Shown piece after piece: positions 6,457 through 49,469 of a stretch of DNA of 64,000 nucleotides. The notes beneath the pieces are model-generated. The model did not search any database and was not told the origin of the DNA. It saw only the letters and a program-made list of their open reading frames with translations. Both the position numbers and the translations under genes were made by a program. Location of the stretch: contig NZ_AOIL01000070.1 of NCBI RefSeq assembly GCF_000337595.1, positions 71,676 through 135,675 of the forward strand, written 5' to 3'. The stretch's first letter is position 1; each line of letters opens with the position of its first letter. The stretch comes from Natrialba taiwanensis DSM 12281. Lineage in GTDB: Archaea; Halobacteriota; Halobacteria; Halobacteriales; Natrialbaceae.

Positions 6457-8283
6457 TCACTGCGTGCGCCGTTCCGGGCGGATTCCGGCTTCCTGCTCGG
6501 TCCTTTCGGTCTTCTGCTGCTGTTCGCGCTTGTCGTCCCCGTCGTCGCTCGCAGTCTCCGCTTCCTCAGCCGTAGCCAACGCCTGCAGTTTCGACCGAAC
6601 CGCATCCGCAAGATCGTACGACCGCACGCCGGTCCGGTCGAGGACGGCTTCCGTGCGCAGTTCGGAAAGGAGACTCTGAACCGCGACCGTCGAGCGGTCG
6701 ACCGCCGTCGCGATCCGCTCCGTCTCGAGTGGTCCCTCGCCAGCCAGCACCACGAGTACGTGTGCGGCCGTCTCGACCGTACATCGAGATCCCTCGCTCG
6801 CCCGCTCGAGACGACCGCCGATCCAGGTCGGCTCGAGCAACGCGACGACATCGCCCATGTCGTACTCCGTCTCGTCGTTCGCGACGACGAGCGCCGACTG
6901 CCCCTCGTCACCGCCGGTACCGACGTATCCCAGTTCGACAGGGGTGCCGCCGGCTTGCACGATCGTCTCCGACGCTGCGTCGGCGTCAGCGTCGCCGTCA
7001 CCGTCACCGACCTCCTCAGCGTCCGTCGAGGTTTCGGCTTCGAGTTCCTGAACTCGCGACCGCAGTCGTTCGGCTTCTTCCCGCAGTCGCTCGATGGTCT
7101 TCGTCCGGGATTCGAGCGTCCGTTCGAGTTCTTCGATGCGTTCCTTGCGCGCTTCGAGTTCAGCCTGGAGGTCGTCGCGCTCGTCTTCCAGGTCGACGAC
7201 CTCCTCGTGGAGACGGCGCAGTTCCTCGTCGTTGCCGCCGCCGAGTTGCGTCTGGACCGTGCCGGGATTGCTCAACGCGTCGGCCATCTGTTTGGCCGCG
7301 CTCGAGACGTCTCGGGCGGACTCGAGTTCGTCCTCCAGGGTCTCGATGCGTTTCTCTTTCTTCTCGAGTTCGGCCTCGAGTTCGTGGATGCGGTCCTGTT
7401 CGCGGTCCTTGCGCTCGGAGATGTCCTGCAAATCCCCGACGAGGGCGTCGGAGACGGACTTGAGTTCGGGGCGTTCGAAGTCGTCGAGGCCGGGCGTCGC
7501 GCCGGCGTCGAACGTTCGCTTGCGCCGGAACTGGACCTTGCGGACATCGATGTCGGTCCAGTCGGTCTGGACGAACGCCTGGCCATCGTCCAGATCGGAG
7601 ACCATCTCGGAGTACTCGGTGTCGATGATCCGGCCGACGACCTTGGTGTCGTTGTCCCAGGTGAGGCGGTGCCAGACGAGCCAGTTCGCCTGCGTGATGA
7701 AGTCCTTCTTGACGTCGGCCGGGCGCTGGCTGATGCCGAGGATGCCGAGGCCGTGCTTGCGCCCGCGCTTGCTGATCTTGATCAGGAGGTTCCCGGTTTC
7801 GCCGACGCCGCCCCCCTCGGGGATGTACTCGTGGACCTCCTCGACGACGAGCAGGAACGGCTTCTTGAGCTTCTTTTCCTTGACGAACAGTTGGCGGGCG
7901 ATCTTTCGTAACAACTTGTCCGACTCGTCCTCGTCCAGGTAGCCCGAGACGTCGAGGATGACGGGGACGTTCTCCTCTAAGGCGAGCGTCGCCATCTGTT
8001 CGGCGTGTTCGGGACCGATCTGGATGTCACACTCCTCGTCGGCCCCGGCGTGGAGCATCTCGTACTCCTCCTTGAGGCCGTAGTACTCCCCGTCGGTGTC
8101 GACGATGAGCAGCGGGAAGCCGGCCTCGAGCAGTTCCTCGGCGATGACGGAGGCGGTGTTCGACTTGCCCGACCCGGACTTGCCGGTGACGAATCCGCGG
8201 CCCGTCAGCAGTTCGACGACCGGCAGGTGTAGATCCGTGCCGTCGGCCGTTTCGCCCACGAGCACTTCGCGTTGCTCGCTCAC
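6457..8283 (-). CDS. HerA/DUF87-family ATPase with long coiled coil
   Basis: A 608-aa protein. Seen: an N-terminal HerA-type ATPase with REVLVGETADG, Walker A GKSGSGKSNT at about residues 34-43, Walker B LLVVEEVHEY, and GISQRPADVKKDF; then about 150 residues of heptad-like coiled coil (DREQDRIHELEAELEKKEKR and on); and a C-terminal winged-helix-like domain near residues 510-580. Such proteins are hexameric DNA translocases or ATPases; the specific partner is unknown. I prefer the GTG at 8283, preceded by a GAGGTG Shine-Dalgarno-like sequence, because relatives begin just before REVLVG. An in-frame ATG at 8364 would add 27 residues with three Cys. No nurA-like gene adjoins it. Confidence 0.88.
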   Translation of the reverse strand: MSEQREVLVGETADGTDLHLPVVELLTGRGFVTGKSGSGKSNTASVIAEELLEAGFPLLIVDTDGEYYGLKEEYEMLHAGADEECDIQIGPEHAEQMATLALEENVPVILDVSGYLDEDESDKLLRKIARQLFVKEKKLKKPFLLVVEEVHEYIPEGGGVGETGNLLIKISKRGRKHGLGILGISQRPADVKKDFITQANWLVWHRLTWDNDTKVVGRIIDTEYSEMVSDLDDGQAFVQTDWTDIDVRKVQFRRKRTFDAGATPGLDDFERPELKSVSDALVGDLQDISERKDREQDRIHELEAELEKKEKRIETLEDELESARDVSSAAKQMADALSNPGTVQTQLGGGNDEELRRLHEEVVDLEDERDDLQAELEARKERIEELERTLESRTKTIERLREEAERLRSRVQELEAETSTDAEEVGDGDGDADADAASETIVQAGGTPVELGYVGTGGDEGQSALVVANDETEYDMGDVVALLEPTWIGGRLERASEGSRCTVETAAHVLVVLAGEGPLETERIATAVDRSTVAVQSLLSELRTEAVLDRTGVRSYDLADAVRSKLQALATAEEAETASDDGDDKREQQQKTERTEQEAGIRPERRTQ

Positions 8284-8500
8284 CGCCGCCCCACCTCGTC
8301 CGCGCGCGACTCGCTCATTATCAATACAGTCCGAACACGCGACCTTGAATATTGGCCTCGACATGTCGCCAAAATCCGTTAAAAATCACGGAGCAGATCC
8401 CTATAACTGATCGAACAAATCGACTGTCGCCGTGATCAGTTCCAATTGTGATTGAAAATAAAGAAAGTAATAAAATCGCCACTATGCTATGTTTGAATAT

Positions 8501-8656
8501 TTACCCCAGCTCATTAGATAGTCCAACTATACCAATTATTAATCCAGTAAGAAGAATAAAATGTGAATATGTCCTACCAGGTGCCCCACTAATTTCAACC
8601 GCACCAACAAACAATAATAATATCATCGAAAAACGCTGTAATGCTGCACCGTTCAT
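8501..8656 (-). CDS. 51-aa two-helix membrane protein
   Basis: A short frame with ATG start and TAA stop, 70 nt downstream of the secreted-protein gene on the same strand. Its translation contains two good transmembrane segments, FSMILLLFVGAVEISGAP (about residues 9-26) and SHFILLTGLIIGIVGL (31-46), joined by a short basic loop (GRTY). Codon use is AT-rich like the neighbouring gene. Its small size, hydrophobicity and position directly after a secreted protein suggest an accessory or immunity-type partner, but I do not recognise a family. Composition makes a chance frame unlikely; homologues would settle it. Confidence 0.55.
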   Translation of the reverse strand: MNGAALQRFSMILLLFVGAVEISGAPGRTYSHFILLTGLIIGIVGLSNELG

Positions 8657-8726
8657 ATCATTTAATGAATATTAGTTATGATAAATGTTTTGGTGAGCGA
8701 TTGACATCCTGAAACAGATTATTAAC

Positions 8727-9734
8727 TTAGTAGGGTAAAAATGATTTGCTTGTTTTTATACGCTCAAAATCCGGTTTGCAACTGGCACAATCGTAGTGGA
8801 AGCTCGCATCTGATTCAACACTAAATAGATTATTACTTAATCCACCAGTTCGTTTGGCGATTGAACTTGGTTGGAAGCCTGAACTACCATCTCTTCCATC
8901 ACCATGATAATAACAATCAAACACGACTGTTTGATCTGAATAATTCGTAGTTCGATCAATTTCTATTTCGCTCCATGATGACTGATAACCATACGAAATC
9001 CCACCTGGGACAGACACCTCAAAGTATCTCTCACCACCGCTATCAGTGCCATTGTACGGTTCCCAGTCATGAATTTCCATATCTGGATTACTATTTGACC
9101 AATTCATTTCTACTCCTGCATCGTCATTTTCATACCCATTCTTACCTGTCTGGTCGAAGTTTTCCTTATACGCGAATATATCTCTGTTTTCTGTACTCTG
9201 GACAAGTTCATAACTGGACCAGAGGTCACCAAATGAATTATAGTTTGTTCTGGTACCTTCATGTAATATATTCCATTCACTGTCAGATATTGAACTATCA
9301 CCTGTTTCATTTGTAGTTAGTTCTGACTCAATTATTTCTGCCTGTTTATGCGCTTCAGCATGCGCTTTAGGAACTTGAGAGGGATCGTCTGCGAAAGTAA
9401 AATGTTCTCGTACAGTTCCACGCTCATCAACTACAGAAACATAAGAAACTAATCTCCCTGTATTTGATTCTAGTTGTACAAAATATTGTGATTCTTCATC
9501 ATCAACTTCTTGTCGGTAATTTATCACACTCTGTTTTTGGAACTCTTCTATCTCTTGTTGCGATATTTCATCTGAATATGGTCGATTGACAATTGTCATA
9601 TCAACCTGGTGATCTCGGGATGCAGTCGTTACACCAGAAAAACAGACAGCACTCGCGAGCAATCCTATAGCGCCTCGTCGAGATGTGTTCAATTTTCTCG
9701 ATCTATCATTGTGATGGTTGCTATCTTCTACCAT
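8727..9734 (-). CDS. Tat-exported protein of unknown function in AT-rich island
   Basis: A 335-aa protein. I chose the ATG at 9734 because it gives a normal Tat leader: a polar N-region, TSRRGAIGLL as twin-arginine motif at about residues 18-27, then a hydrophobic segment ending near TTAS. An upstream in-frame start at 9827 would bury this signal. The mature part has an alpha/acidic region with YFVQLESNTGRLVSYVSVVD, and a C-terminal half rich in aromatic and beta residues (EVSVPGGISYGYQSSWSEI, VVFDCYYHGDG) with three Cys close to the end (HYDCASCKPDF has two). The family was not recognised. A secreted antagonistic protein is one possibility, given its small membrane neighbour. Confidence 0.75.
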   Translation of the reverse strand: MVEDSNHHNDRSRKLNTSRRGAIGLLASAVCFSGVTTASRDHQVDMTIVNRPYSDEISQQEIEEFQKQSVINYRQEVDDEESQYFVQLESNTGRLVSYVSVVDERGTVREHFTFADDPSQVPKAHAEAHKQAEIIESELTTNETGDSSISDSEWNILHEGTRTNYNSFGDLWSSYELVQSTENRDIFAYKENFDQTGKNGYENDDAGVEMNWSNSNPDMEIHDWEPYNGTDSGGERYFEVSVPGGISYGYQSSWSEIEIDRTTNYSDQTVVFDCYYHGDGRDGSSGFQPSSIAKRTGGLSNNLFSVESDASFHYDCASCKPDFERIKTSKSFLPY

Positions 9735-10245
9735 TGCAATGTACCATATTAACTTCAAAATATTAAGTGTTTTCAACATTCTGATGTCAGTATAATACCC
9801 CATAGTGAGAATGGTTGTTACTAACACACCTGAGAAAAGATTATGTCACTCCCGCTCAACGTATCGATCGTTCCGATGATCTCGACCACGCCACCATCCG
9901 CTCGTCACGCGGCAGCCATCGTCGCTGCCGGGCGAGTTCTCGAGTCCGTCGCCGGCGGGTATCTCGCTGGCAATGGGCTCATCGGTGGCCGTGGACGGGA
10001 TCGCTGACGGCTCCACGTCGTCTCTGACCCCGTCCGCGCCGCGCACGTCTTCGCCGGTCGGGGTCGCTACGACTGTTCCTTTCCGGATTTCTCCATTACG
10101 CAATCGGGGATTCCGCCTTTCGGTTCACGCGACACCGGCCAGCGAGTGCTGCGCGGGGCGACGCCCCCCGCAGTGGATTGGCCACCGGCGGACGCCCGAC
10201 AACACGGGCCGTCCGACCGCCGAGTTCGACTCTCGGCGGGGGCTT
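9735..10245. other. Intergenic region at the right edge of the AT-rich island
   Basis: This 511-nt stretch goes from AT-rich (the probable promoter of the minus-strand secreted protein) back to GC-rich at about 9840. A minus-strand frame at 9846-10103 (85 aa, TTG start) has a somewhat haloarchaeal, acidic composition, but no motif and no proper start. I do not call it a gene. Confidence 0.4.
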
Positions 10246-45169: not shown

Positions 45170-45673
45170 ATGTCTGTCCAGAGGAGTCGTCCCGAGTCGC
45201 TCGCAGAAAGCGAGGTCTTTCACATTCTCGGCAACGACAGACGACGAGCAATCGTCCAACTACTCGCACACCAATCCGGACAGGTCGATGTCTCGGACAT
45301 CGCGACCGAAATCGCCGCCACCGAGTCCGAAACGACATCAGTACCGAATAACCTCTACAAAAGCGTCTACGTCTCCCTCCAACAGACGCATCTCCCTCAA
45401 CTCGAGGAAGACGCAGTCATCGAGTACGATTCGGACACCAAAACAATCCAACCGGGTCCGAACTTCGAGGACGTTATCACCTATATCGACGGCCACGATG
45501 GTGATCACACTCGAGTTCTCCAACTCCACCTTGCCGCCTGCGTCATCGGTCTCGGCCTCATCGTCCTCACCGGACTCGACCTCCCGCTGCTTTCCAGTCT
45601 CGATCCCGTCCTCTGGAGCGTTCTCATTCTGGTCGCCATCGCCGGGAGCAGCCTCTACCGACTCTTCGCTTGA
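45170..45673 (+). CDS. DUF7344 winged-helix protein with two membrane helices
   Basis: A 167-aa third paralogue. Seen: a winged helix (EVFHILGNDRRRAIVQLLAH; DVSDIATEIAATESE), the signature NLYKSVYVSLQQTHLPQLEE, and two C-terminal transmembrane helices (LAACVIGLGLIVLTGLDLPLL and VLWSVLILVAIAGSSLYRLF) with almost no tail after them. It is more diverged from the other two than they are from each other: the AAWEND motif has become AATESE. It converges on the DUF7282 protein gene. Confidence 0.85.
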   Translation: MSVQRSRPESLAESEVFHILGNDRRRAIVQLLAHQSGQVDVSDIATEIAATESETTSVPNNLYKSVYVSLQQTHLPQLEEDAVIEYDSDTKTIQPGPNFEDVITYIDGHDGDHTRVLQLHLAACVIGLGLIVLTGLDLPLLSSLDPVLWSVLILVAIAGSSLYRLFA

Positions 45674-45921: not shown

Positions 45922-48345
45922 TTACGCGAGTGCCGCAGCCACGTTCGCGCTCGGTCCCGACTCCTCGGCTGCTGAACTCGTCGTCATGTCGTCCATTCCC
46001 GAGTCGTGCATACTGACAACGATGATCGTTGCCTGTTCGATCGTAACGGAAATCTCGGAGTCGTCACTAGTGTCGGTGTCAGTACCAGTGTCGGTGTCGG
46101 TATCGCCATCAGTCTCTTCCGCATCGTCAGTCATCGCTTCGTCAGTATCGCCGTTGGTCTCGGTATCGTTGTAGTCGTCTGTGTCGTCCGCTTCGGTATC
46201 CGTCTCTTCGACGCCGTTTTCGGTTTCGGTCTCAGTCTCGGTTTCGGTCTCGGTACTCGCATTGTCCGAGTCCTCGATTCCGGTCGTCGTGGAGTCGTTC
46301 TCCGCGACACCGTTGTCGTCTTCGATACCATCGTCAGTAGCATTGGTATCAGCCGCCGCCGAATCGGCCTCGGTATCCGTCTCGTGGCCATCCTCACCGG
46401 TGTCGGTACCGTTCTCGACCCCAGTATCAGCACTGTCGTCAGCACCGAAGACGAAGATGGTCGCCTGTTCGATCGTTATCTCGTGTTCACCGGCATCGGC
46501 ATCTCCGACCGCTGATTCATCGGTTGCGTCGTCGTGCTCATCGTCAGCGGCACCGTCACTGGCGTTCTGGTCGTTCGTCTCCTCCGACGGCTCCGTCTCA
46601 GTGGTCTCGTCGTCCGTTTCTGGGGATTCGGTCTCCGTCTCGTTCATTGCGTCGTCGTCCCCAGCATCACAGCACGTATCTTCCGTGGCAGCTTCGTCTG
46701 ATTCGTTTTCGACGGGAGCAGTCGTGTCGTTCTCCCCGTTTTCGTCATCGAGTTCAGTGTCGTTGGTGTCGTCGGTGGTGGTGTTAGTGTCGGTTTCGGT
46801 GTCAGTGGTGGTTTCAGTTTCAGTTTCGGTGTCGGTGTCGACATCCATCTCGTCCTCGGATTCGGTGGTGTCGGGCTGTTCGTCAGCCGCTGAATCGAAT
46901 CCCTGAACGAGGACGAAGATCGTCGCACGCTCGATCGTGATCTCGCTCTGGTTGCCGTTGGTCATCTCGTCCGCCGGCAGGTCGTCTGCGCTGTGGAGTA
47001 GGACGAAGATGGTGGCGTTCTCGATGGATGCCGTGCTAACGGAGTCCGTTTCTGTTTCTGTGTCTGGTTCTGTCTCAGAGTCTGTTTCCGTCTCAGTGTC
47101 AGTCTCTGTCTCGGTAGTCGTCTCGGTGTCCGTGCCAGTGTCAGTTTCAGTGTCGGTTTCGGTCTCGGTGGTAGTTTCGGTGTCAGTGTCAGTCTCTGTC
47201 TCAGTGTCCGCAGCCGTTTCGTTTTCACCGTTCGGTTGCATCGCACCGTCACCGGCATAGTCGCCCATGGACGACTCCATTCCGCCTGGACCGAGTGGGG
47301 CGATCGTTGGCTGTTCGATCGTCACTTCGATCTGTTTCTCGTCGGACATGGCGTCGTCGTCGCTGCACTCGAAGCCGTGTGCGACAAGGGTCGCCCGATT
47401 GATCGTGACGGTGAGTTCACCATCGCCAGCGGCGGTGTCGGCTGGCTGATCGTCGACAGGTTGGTCATCCGTCGGTTCGTCATCCGCCGGCTGCTCAGCT
47501 GCAGGCGTGTCGTTCGCTGGCTGCTCGTCTTCGGGTGCATCAGCGGCTGGCTGATCGTCTGCCGGTTCGCCGTCCGCTGGTTGCTCATCTGCTGGCTGCT
47601 CGTCTGCCGGTTTATCGTCCGCCGATTCGTTAGCCGCCGGCTGCTCGTCTGCCGACTCGGTGTCGTTAGCTGGCATCTCAGCAGCGCCGTTGTCGGCCGT
47701 TCCGTTCGCTTCGACCGTTACAACTGCCTCAGCAGTGACGGCGTCGCCTGCATCGGTGACGTACGGGCCGTCCTCTTGGCCGTCAGTCTCGACGAAATCG
47801 TACTCCTGGTTGTCGTTCGTGTCGAGGTGCGGCATGGCGACCAGCGTTTCGTCCTCAGTAAGCGGCTCGTCGAGCGTAATCTCGATGTTCTCGTGCGTCC
47901 CTGGTTCGAGGTATGCTGACGTACCGATCACGCTCTCGATAGCCTCTCCAACGAGAAGACTACTGTTGTGAATCGTCACGAAGCCCCCGTCAGGAAGCGT
48001 TGCCTCCTCCACGACGACCGTCTCGCCCGCCGTCGTCTGGTCTTCGAAGGTCACCGTCGCCGTCTGTGCCGGTCCGTCATCACTTCCATTATCGCCGGCT
48101 TCTGCATCGCCGTTCGTTCCTGTCTCATCGGAGGTTTCCGCCTCGTCTGTCGCCCCCGAGTCCATCTCCGCCTCCGACGCTGTCGTCTCGGTTGCTGTCT
48201 CTCCCTCGTTACTGCTCTCCTCGTGTGCCTGGTCGCTCGTGTTCCCACTAGCACTCGCCGATGTTGCCCCCGCGACCATCGCAACACCCGAGGTTATCAT
48301 CATCAGTGTGATGAGCAGTACGAGTAGCTTCTTGCGTACGTTCAT
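45922..48345 (-). CDS. Large acidic secreted protein: DUF7282 domain plus repeated strand motifs
   Basis: An 807-aa protein. Seen: a Sec signal (VRKKLLVLLITLMMITSGVAM) near the N-terminus, a Glu/Thr-rich spacer, a DUF7282-like beta domain (about residues 100-200: TVTFEDQTTAGETVVVEEAT, DGGFVTIHNSSLLVGEAI, GTHENIEITLDEPLTEDETL), then about 600 residues of extreme low complexity (ADEQP, TETETDTD and similar). Six short motifs punctuate it: VTINRATLVAHGF, VTIEQPTIAPLG, ASIENATIFVLL, ITIERATIFVLV, ITIEQATIFVFG, VTIEQATIIVVS. No C-terminal transmembrane anchor is visible. It is probably an extracellular or surface protein. Function unknown. Confidence 0.82.
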   Translation of the reverse strand: MNVRKKLLVLLITLMMITSGVAMVAGATSASASGNTSDQAHEESSNEGETATETTASEAEMDSGATDEAETSDETGTNGDAEAGDNGSDDGPAQTATVTFEDQTTAGETVVVEEATLPDGGFVTIHNSSLLVGEAIESVIGTSAYLEPGTHENIEITLDEPLTEDETLVAMPHLDTNDNQEYDFVETDGQEDGPYVTDAGDAVTAEAVVTVEANGTADNGAAEMPANDTESADEQPAANESADDKPADEQPADEQPADGEPADDQPAADAPEDEQPANDTPAAEQPADDEPTDDQPVDDQPADTAAGDGELTVTINRATLVAHGFECSDDDAMSDEKQIEVTIEQPTIAPLGPGGMESSMGDYAGDGAMQPNGENETAADTETETDTDTETTTETETDTETDTGTDTETTTETETDTETETDSETEPDTETETDSVSTASIENATIFVLLHSADDLPADEMTNGNQSEITIERATIFVLVQGFDSAADEQPDTTESEDEMDVDTDTETETETTTDTETDTNTTTDDTNDTELDDENGENDTTAPVENESDEAATEDTCCDAGDDDAMNETETESPETDDETTETEPSEETNDQNASDGAADDEHDDATDESAVGDADAGEHEITIEQATIFVFGADDSADTGVENGTDTGEDGHETDTEADSAAADTNATDDGIEDDNGVAENDSTTTGIEDSDNASTETETETETETENGVEETDTEADDTDDYNDTETNGDTDEAMTDDAEETDGDTDTDTGTDTDTSDDSEISVTIEQATIIVVSMHDSGMDDMTTSSAAEESGPSANVAAALA

Positions 48346-48632
48346 AGTGTGCCGTTGAAGGCACTCGTTCATCGCTGGAGTGGCGCTTAAACTGCCACAA
48401 CCATTTCGGCAGGAAACTGTACACTACGCGTTCCTGACGCCAGACACGCCAATCCCGTCGCCTGCAGAAAGGACGGATTGAGAACCACAACGACACCAGT
48501 CGCCGTTCGACATTCGCCGTACTTGTTGTCGCCCTTCAGTGTGCGCCCCCGATTCGCCACACATTACTCATACTCGCGACAGATGATACATAACACACGG
48601 AACATAACACACGACACGCGATGTGCGATACA

Positions 48633-49199
48633 CTACTCGTTCGACTGCTCCGGCGACTTCGACGCCGTCGGCTCGTGCCCCGGCAAACAGACCAAATTCT
48701 CCCGTCCCAGCCGTAACTTGGTAACCTGATCGTCCTCCTCGAGTTCAGCCAGCAGCCGGCTCACCTTCGCTTTCGACCAGTCGACCGAGTCAACGATACG
48801 GGACTGTTTCATGCGCCCCCCGTTCTCGCGGATGAGTTTGTGGACCTGTTCCTGGTCGGTCATGAACTCGTCGCGGTGGGAGTCGTAGTTGGGGTTGTGC
48901 TTGTGTCGACGATTGTAGCCGGGTCCGTGCTCGCTGTCGTGGTCGTAATCGTGTTCGGAGGTGTCACCGTAGCTGTCGGCCCTGCGATTCTGTAACCGAT
49001 CTCGAGCGACGAGGATAGTGCCCAGGGCAGTCAAGAGGAGTAATCCGAGGAGTGCTGCGAGATGGGCACCACTGCTCGTTTGAAGTGGCACCGCAGAAAA
49101 AGTCGGCTCGAATCCGACGCGTTCAGCGACTGCGGCGTGGTCGCTAGCCGAGCGAAGCAGTCCCGCGTCGGAGACGGTGGTGGGGAAGTGGATGCTCAT
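48633..49199 (-). CDS. Membrane-anchored winged-helix protein
   Basis: A 188-aa protein. Seen: one transmembrane helix (LAALLGLLLLTALGTILVA, about residues 57-75), a polar His/Asp/Arg linker, and a C-terminal winged helix (QEQVHKLIRENGGRMKQSRI; VDWSKAKVSRLLAELEEDDQ; VTKLRLGRENLVCLPG). This is a frequent haloarchaeal regulator layout, in which a DNA-binding domain is tethered to the membrane. The N-terminal part may lie outside. The start ATG at 49199 is preferred over a longer GTG/ATG frame at 49247, but the N-terminus is uncertain. Confidence 0.75.
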   Translation of the reverse strand: MSIHFPTTVSDAGLLRSASDHAAVAERVGFEPTFSAVPLQTSSGAHLAALLGLLLLTALGTILVARDRLQNRRADSYGDTSEHDYDHDSEHGPGYNRRHKHNPNYDSHRDEFMTDQEQVHKLIRENGGRMKQSRIVDSVDWSKAKVSRLLAELEEDDQVTKLRLGRENLVCLPGHEPTASKSPEQSNE

Positions 49200-49469
49200 G
49201 ATGACGACGAACGAAGACTCGCTCACTCGTTTCTGAACCGTCGACACCCGCCTTCAAAGTATTTTTTATGGGTCATGTATTGTTATTACTTGCTAAGTAT
49301 ATCACAGAAAGTGGTGTGTGCGGGAATCCGACGCGATACTGGAGCAGTCTCCGTCCGGTTTCGAAGGATACCGTAGCCGTTGGTAATTCGATTTTACCAG
49401 TGAGCGATAATCCGGCTGGAAGGCCGATGCGTGAGCGGAAGCCAGTGGGAGCCGACACCCGTCTCACCA

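Follow-up and report, generated by a model that had tools for sequence, protein, structure and literature searches.

We describe a family of proteins, here called the bead family, that carry a short motif, usually six times over, along an acidic chain. The window, that is, the whole stretch of 64,000 nucleotides that was analyzed, comes from a Natrialba genome near N. aegyptia and N. asiatica. It codes for one member, the bead protein, with six motifs of about 13 residues and the consensus L-x-V-T-I-E-Q-A-T-I-F-V-V. Within the Natrialbaceae the motif module is conserved and has no annotation; it is carried by 36 proteins from about 17 genera, and the family is real and new as a family while working like known kinds. 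The reading that we prefer, tentatively, is that the six strands gather into a single sheet or an open solenoid from which the linkers protrude as loops, and that the molecules may stack into a surface fibre or matrix.

Layout of the bead protein

The open reading frame runs from 48345 to 45922, with a further in-frame ATG upstream at 48372, and orthologues are found in 7/7 genomes of the genus Natrialba. A signal peptide is followed by an acidic stretch, one DUF7282 domain and about 600 residues with the six motifs. The signal peptide is predicted from the sequence and from an N-terminus shared by the homologues, and the protein looks secreted. The features, from the N-terminus, are as follows (motif scores are from the leave-genus-out matrix described below).

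45922–48345, minus strand: bead protein gene (ORF, 807 codons, conserved locus)
48256–48345, minus strand: predicted Sec-type signal peptide, about residues 1–30, MNVRKKLLVLLITLMMITSGVAMVAGA
47716–48060, minus strand: DUF7282 domain, residues 96–210 (Pfam PF23951, E 3.1e-43), optional in the family
47419–47700, minus strand: acidic linker, residues 216–309, rich in (A/E)DEQPAD repeats (from the sequence; 15/30/45 bp tandem repeats)
47371–47418, minus strand: motif 1, ELTVTINRATLVAHGF, residues 310–325 (score 19.0)
47287–47334, minus strand: motif 2, QIEVTIEQPTIAPLGP, residues 338–353, special type with L/I-G end (score 25.4)
47041–47286, minus strand: linker 2, Thr/Glu/Asp (6/18/42/54 bp tandem repeats)
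46993–47040, minus strand: motif 3, VSTASIENATIFVLLH, residues 436–451 (score 28.0)
46903–46950, minus strand: motif 4, QSEITIERATIFVLVQ, residues 466–481, close behind motif 3 (score 38.7)
46489–46902, minus strand: linker 4, Thr/Glu/Asp, with a CC pair retained in Natrialba orthologues (tandem repeats)
46441–46488, minus strand: motif 5, EHEITIEQATIFVFGA, residues 620–635 (score 38.5)
46057–46440, minus strand: linker 5, acidic (tandem repeats at 46120–46259)
46009–46056, minus strand: motif 6, EISVTIEQATIIVVSM, residues 764–779 (score 30.8)

We trained a matrix on 176 motifs taken from 30 proteins of genera other than Natrialba. In the window protein it found exactly six matches (scores 19.0–38.7) and no others, and these are the six motifs that the first-pass annotation of this DNA had described. 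When this region was shuffled 5000 times, the scores reached at most 18.1 (mean -3.1). The domain that this annotation had called DUF7282-like, ahead of the motifs, is a true Pfam match, confined to residues 96–210 and scoring 146.9 bits against a curated cut-off of 27. The window protein thus combines the predicted signal peptide with six VTIEQATIFVV motifs in acidic linkers. The motifs take up 19% of the length of their region and hold 62% of its I/L/V/F/Y/W/M residues. A five-residue period also fits the motif, with VTIEQ-ATIFV as two pentapeptide-like units. At the DNA level, TIExAT(I/V) has five occurrences in the 4.6-Mb genome, and the bead gene accounts for three.

Measured between 16-residue motif windows, the linkers from motif 1 to motif 6 are 12, 82, 14, 138 and 128 residues long; the acidic spacing first noticed therefore stands, with a range slightly wider than the 20–130 residues given for it. 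Aspartate and glutamate make up 40% of the linkers, and any 10 linker residues include at most three hydrophobic ones.

The motif module across the Natrialbaceae

Related loci were gathered with the DUF7282 domain as query. The order dihydroorotase, epimerase, (small membrane protein), DUF7343 regulator, bead gene, DUF7344 regulator, DUF1616 was seen, whole or mostly, in 16 of the 27 neighborhoods compared and at about 40 distinct loci in total. The two syntenic regulators in the window are:

48633–49247, minus strand: upstream gene, TM segment and DUF7343 winged-helix (Pfam PF24034, E 1e-27; synteny)
45170–45673, plus strand: facing gene, DUF7344 winged-helix with C-terminal TM segments (Pfam PF24035, E 5e-25; synteny)

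That winged-helix regulators with TM segments flank the bead gene at most syntenic loci suggests a membrane-linked control of its expression. Elsewhere in the window, positions 8001–10000 have a GC content of 0.448, against about 0.64 around them, and this stretch is possibly a foreign island.

At the conserved locus the DUF7282 domain is N-terminal (the window, L103, L104, L111 and L114), C-terminal (L105 and L119) or absent (L115 and L121), and the six motifs persist whatever its placement. The motifs are therefore an independent module. The core of the family is the motif set and not DUF7282, which is an optional and mobile domain. The motifs had at first been likened to strands of DUF7282 domains, but a comparison of the motif profile with the DUF7282 alignment using hhalign gave a probability of 0.9%, and many homologues have no such domain; we rejected the idea that the motifs are copies of DUF7282 strands. 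The window protein resembles the haloarchaeal DUF7282 (PF23951) proteins in having one such domain, and differs from them in the same two respects, the mobility of the domain and the nature of the motifs. No mention of DUF7282 was found in a literature search. DUF7282 paralogues in Natrialba (L017, L011 and L012; frames of 1477–1596 aa) have a long N-terminal array of repeats of about 20–30 residues, for example TVEQIQAAADGGAQGVLVQ.

These observations also bear on the possibility that the motifs serve as docking peptides, each contributing a strand to a partner (DUF7282, the S-layer or another surface protein), and that the whole protein is a multivalent tether. A short linear motif within a chain that seems disordered, and the coexistence of several domains (DUF7282, CARDB), would suit such a role, but L115 and L121 lack DUF7282 at the very locus that is conserved, and the locus contains regulators and membrane proteins and no conserved structural partner gene. 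We regard this possibility as very unlikely.

With genera assigned from names in the reference collection, the family includes members in Natrialba, Natronococcus, Halopiger, Natrarchaeobius, Halobiforma and Natronobiforma. Profile searches with the motif alone recovered members across many genera of the Natrialbaceae. Motif-only profile searches (per-genome E 0.01) found no member outside the Natrialbaceae, an absence that is provisional since the other haloarchaeal families were sampled evenly but incompletely; the sole match outside, in genome G320, failed a motif re-test and was rejected. Six is the usual motif count, and some members have five or seven. A second group of members, at other loci, is devoid of DUF7282 and often has one or two terminal cysteines. 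At the same locus, the Natronorubrum protein has three motif matches, and those of Natrinema and Haloterrigena have one pentapeptide-like rung, for example VENPTIENLNVENVTVYVLVV, beside DUF7282. No Pfam or NCBIfam model falls on the motifs, the DUF7282-less members have no specific match in these collections, and the motif profile matched no PDB sequence.

Frame breaks were seen in the orthologue of N. asiatica (L043:7610-7703) and in that of one other Natrialba (L038:7021). They lie at or near single-N assembly gaps, and the genes were not taken to be broken; in N. asiatica both gene halves carry motifs. The N. asiatica junction translates like a Nextera adapter, which seems to have been left in the public assembly.

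Motif identity and linker turnover

The first-pass annotation would have been contradicted by motifs that differ between orthologues; we found that the motifs are conserved while the linkers turn over. Between close pairs, tens of residues are gained or lost in the linkers and motif length is constant. Family-wide, linkers range from 5 to 208 residues, the one between motifs 3 and 4 being usually short (median 16 aa), and the linker DNA holds tandem repeats (6 to 54 bp), a ready source of length change. Between the window protein and that of N. aegyptia, dN/dS was 0.08 for motifs and 0.22 for linkers; more distant pairs, for which linker alignment is uncertain, gave no consistent difference. 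In seven of eight pairs the motifs also showed less synonymous divergence than the N-terminal part, likely because of the codon bias of Ile, Val and Phe.

A permutation test on 30 proteins with six motifs each showed that motifs sharing an ordinal position were more alike across genera (29.9) than permuted ones (26.1); none of 2000 permutations reached the observed value. Motif 2, for instance, usually ends in L/I-G and not in FVV. Thus, as far as the sequences tell, the motifs are not freely interchangeable. The LG-type motif is placed elsewhere in some DUF7282-less members, and in L115 motifs 4–6 are nearly identical. Ordinal identity is support and not proof for a cooperative fold, because common descent alone could produce it.

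This pattern matters for a reading in which the motifs act as stickers, each alone cross-linking the motifs of other molecules, so that a loose extracellular gel would form from chains with no defined monomer fold. Such a gel would be in keeping with short beta motifs, present several times per chain between long hydrophilic spacers free in length and sequence, and with the C-terminal cysteine of many DUF7282-less members; squid ring-teeth proteins likewise alternate sheet-forming segments of about 12 residues with amorphous spacers (PMC6393770). Interchangeable stickers, however, should gain and lose copies and lose their ordinal identity, whereas most members keep six motifs and their signatures, and the single-motif relatives in Natrinema would be poor cross-linkers. 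We consider the gel somewhat unlikely.

As to the cysteines themselves, the Natrialba orthologues have internal CC pairs, and L107, L116, L118, L120, L122, L125, L128 and L129 end instead with one or two cysteines at the C-terminus (SCSCTG, ACHC, HCTC, SCAC, TAC, TSC). These are unusual in such acidic proteins and could possibly form a disulfide link.

Strand assembly and known systems

The motif had been proposed to be a single beta strand, and modeling with AF2 agrees. For L113, with an alignment of 13 rows, the model was poor (pLDDT 44). For the motif region of L124 (Halopiger), we used 36 natural fragments, with 181 of 210 motif positions aligned motif on motif. The resulting model has exactly six strands of 12–15 residues, one per motif and all hydrogen-bonded (residues 9–22, 84–96, 108–119, 151–164, 184–198 and 254–268), at low confidence (mean pLDDT 51.7, strand blocks about 55–66, pTM 0.36). 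A Foldseek search with it returned no solved relative. The model weakly supports a pairing of the strands with one another, and does not give the sheet order.

Six paired strands with ordinal identity could also make up a normal, monomeric beta domain whose loops are very long; it would bind a ligand or a surface and not polymerize. The low confidence of the model that pairs them, the missing fold match, the largely unconstrained linker lengths and the relatives with 1, 3, 5 or 7 motifs all tell against this compact domain, which we hold to be distinctly unlikely. Isolated edge strands that pair between molecules, as the first-pass annotation proposed, are a possible reading, but six as the commonest number, the ordinal signatures and the draft model point more to strands that gather, perhaps inside a single chain.

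A sister family (L032:127-1701 (-), L037, L203, L207, L212 and many more) consists of secreted proteins with five longer pentapeptide-like rungs, such as ATLQNVQVGTLELDNVTIENATIEELTVEQLDV, in acidic linkers. Of 125 Natrialbaceae genomes, 94 have matches to it, often with several copies, and the window's own genome has none. In comparisons with hhalign, whose E-values are those of single pairwise comparisons of very short profiles, the bead motif profile matched the single Natrinema rung with a probability of 85% (E 6e-6) and the sister-family rungs more weakly, with 52%. Pentapeptide-like rungs of sister proteins are the nearest relatives of the motifs. The likeness to the rungs of pentapeptide repeats and right-handed beta-helices lies in the motif, in its match to the Natrinema rung and in the sister proteins, with VTIEQLTIEDLTIENANVTVFVI and longer runs; unlike pentapeptide repeats, the beads have only about two five-residue units each and stand far apart. 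The Pfam pentapeptide-repeat model had no match in the window protein, its homologues or L032, and L032, the one sister member scanned, had no Pfam or NCBIfam match at all. The comparison suggests, without proof, that both families may consist of solenoid rungs pulled apart by linkers.

That no described architecture resembles the bead protein, as was first stated, is too strong, since FapC (PMC12392863) and the squid ring-teeth proteins (PMC6393770) share its principle. FapC, a functional amyloid of Pseudomonas with a solved structure, stacks imperfect beta repeats joined by linkers of about 30–260 residues (PMC12392863). Like the bead protein it is secreted, has a few imperfect beta repeats with a conserved Gln, and has disordered linkers of widely varying length, one of them kept short (PMC12392863). 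It differs in having three repeats of 35–40 aa, Asn/Gln arrays and a fap operon, whereas the bead protein is archaeal and has about six repeats of about 13 aa with very acidic linkers. No Pfam or NCBIfam match to FapBC-type repeats of about 35–40 residues was found on the motif region, and no fap operon around the bead gene, its neighbors being those of the order given above. The squid ring-teeth proteins and silks share the architecture of sheet-forming segments between spacers, which are Gly/Tyr-rich there and acidic here; we claim no sequence relation.

In the assembly that we prefer, the Natrialbaceae-specific protein would be secreted, its core being about six short beta strands, or rungs, set in an acidic chain that is presumably disordered. 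At high salt these strands would gather into a single beta sheet or an open solenoid, and the linkers would protrude from it as loops, forming a hydrated acidic brush. Strands left exposed at its ends may then stack on the next molecule, as FapC repeats do, and the resulting polymer would form a fibre or a matrix on the cell surface. In favor of this assembly we count the six motifs of most members, their ordinal signatures, the closeness of motifs 3 and 4, the concentration of hydrophobic residues in motifs, the six paired strands of the model, the same plan in the sister family, the Natrinema rung match and the FapC precedent. Against it we count the low model confidence and empty Foldseek search, the members with five or seven motifs, the Natronorubrum and Natrinema relatives with three or fewer, the LG-type motif that shifts place and signatures that may reflect descent, and a motif dN/dS not consistently under that of the linkers. 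An in-register parallel stack would moreover pile up charge, because 82% of motifs have an acidic residue at position 3. The more specific form of the idea, a 'split solenoid' in which disordered, hypervariable linkers separate the rungs and assembly takes place only extracellularly, at high salt, is in our estimate unlikely.

The work defines an unannotated family of predicted secreted proteins within one haloarchaeal family. Biofilms of Haloferax volcanii bind amyloid dyes (PMC4180959), and haloarchaeal functional amyloid so far rests on this staining of Haloferax biofilms. By analogy, the bead genes may be candidates of the kind sought for the matrix of amyloid-dye-positive haloarchaeal biofilms; the link is an analogy because no member was found outside the Natrialbaceae. 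If the rungs assemble, theirs would be a beta core that tolerates insertions of 5–200 residues between strands, and a natural salt-dependent material. Should the split solenoid be true, the Natrialbaceae would have in it a widespread extracellular material, and the bead genes would be a candidate gene family for archaeal functional amyloid.
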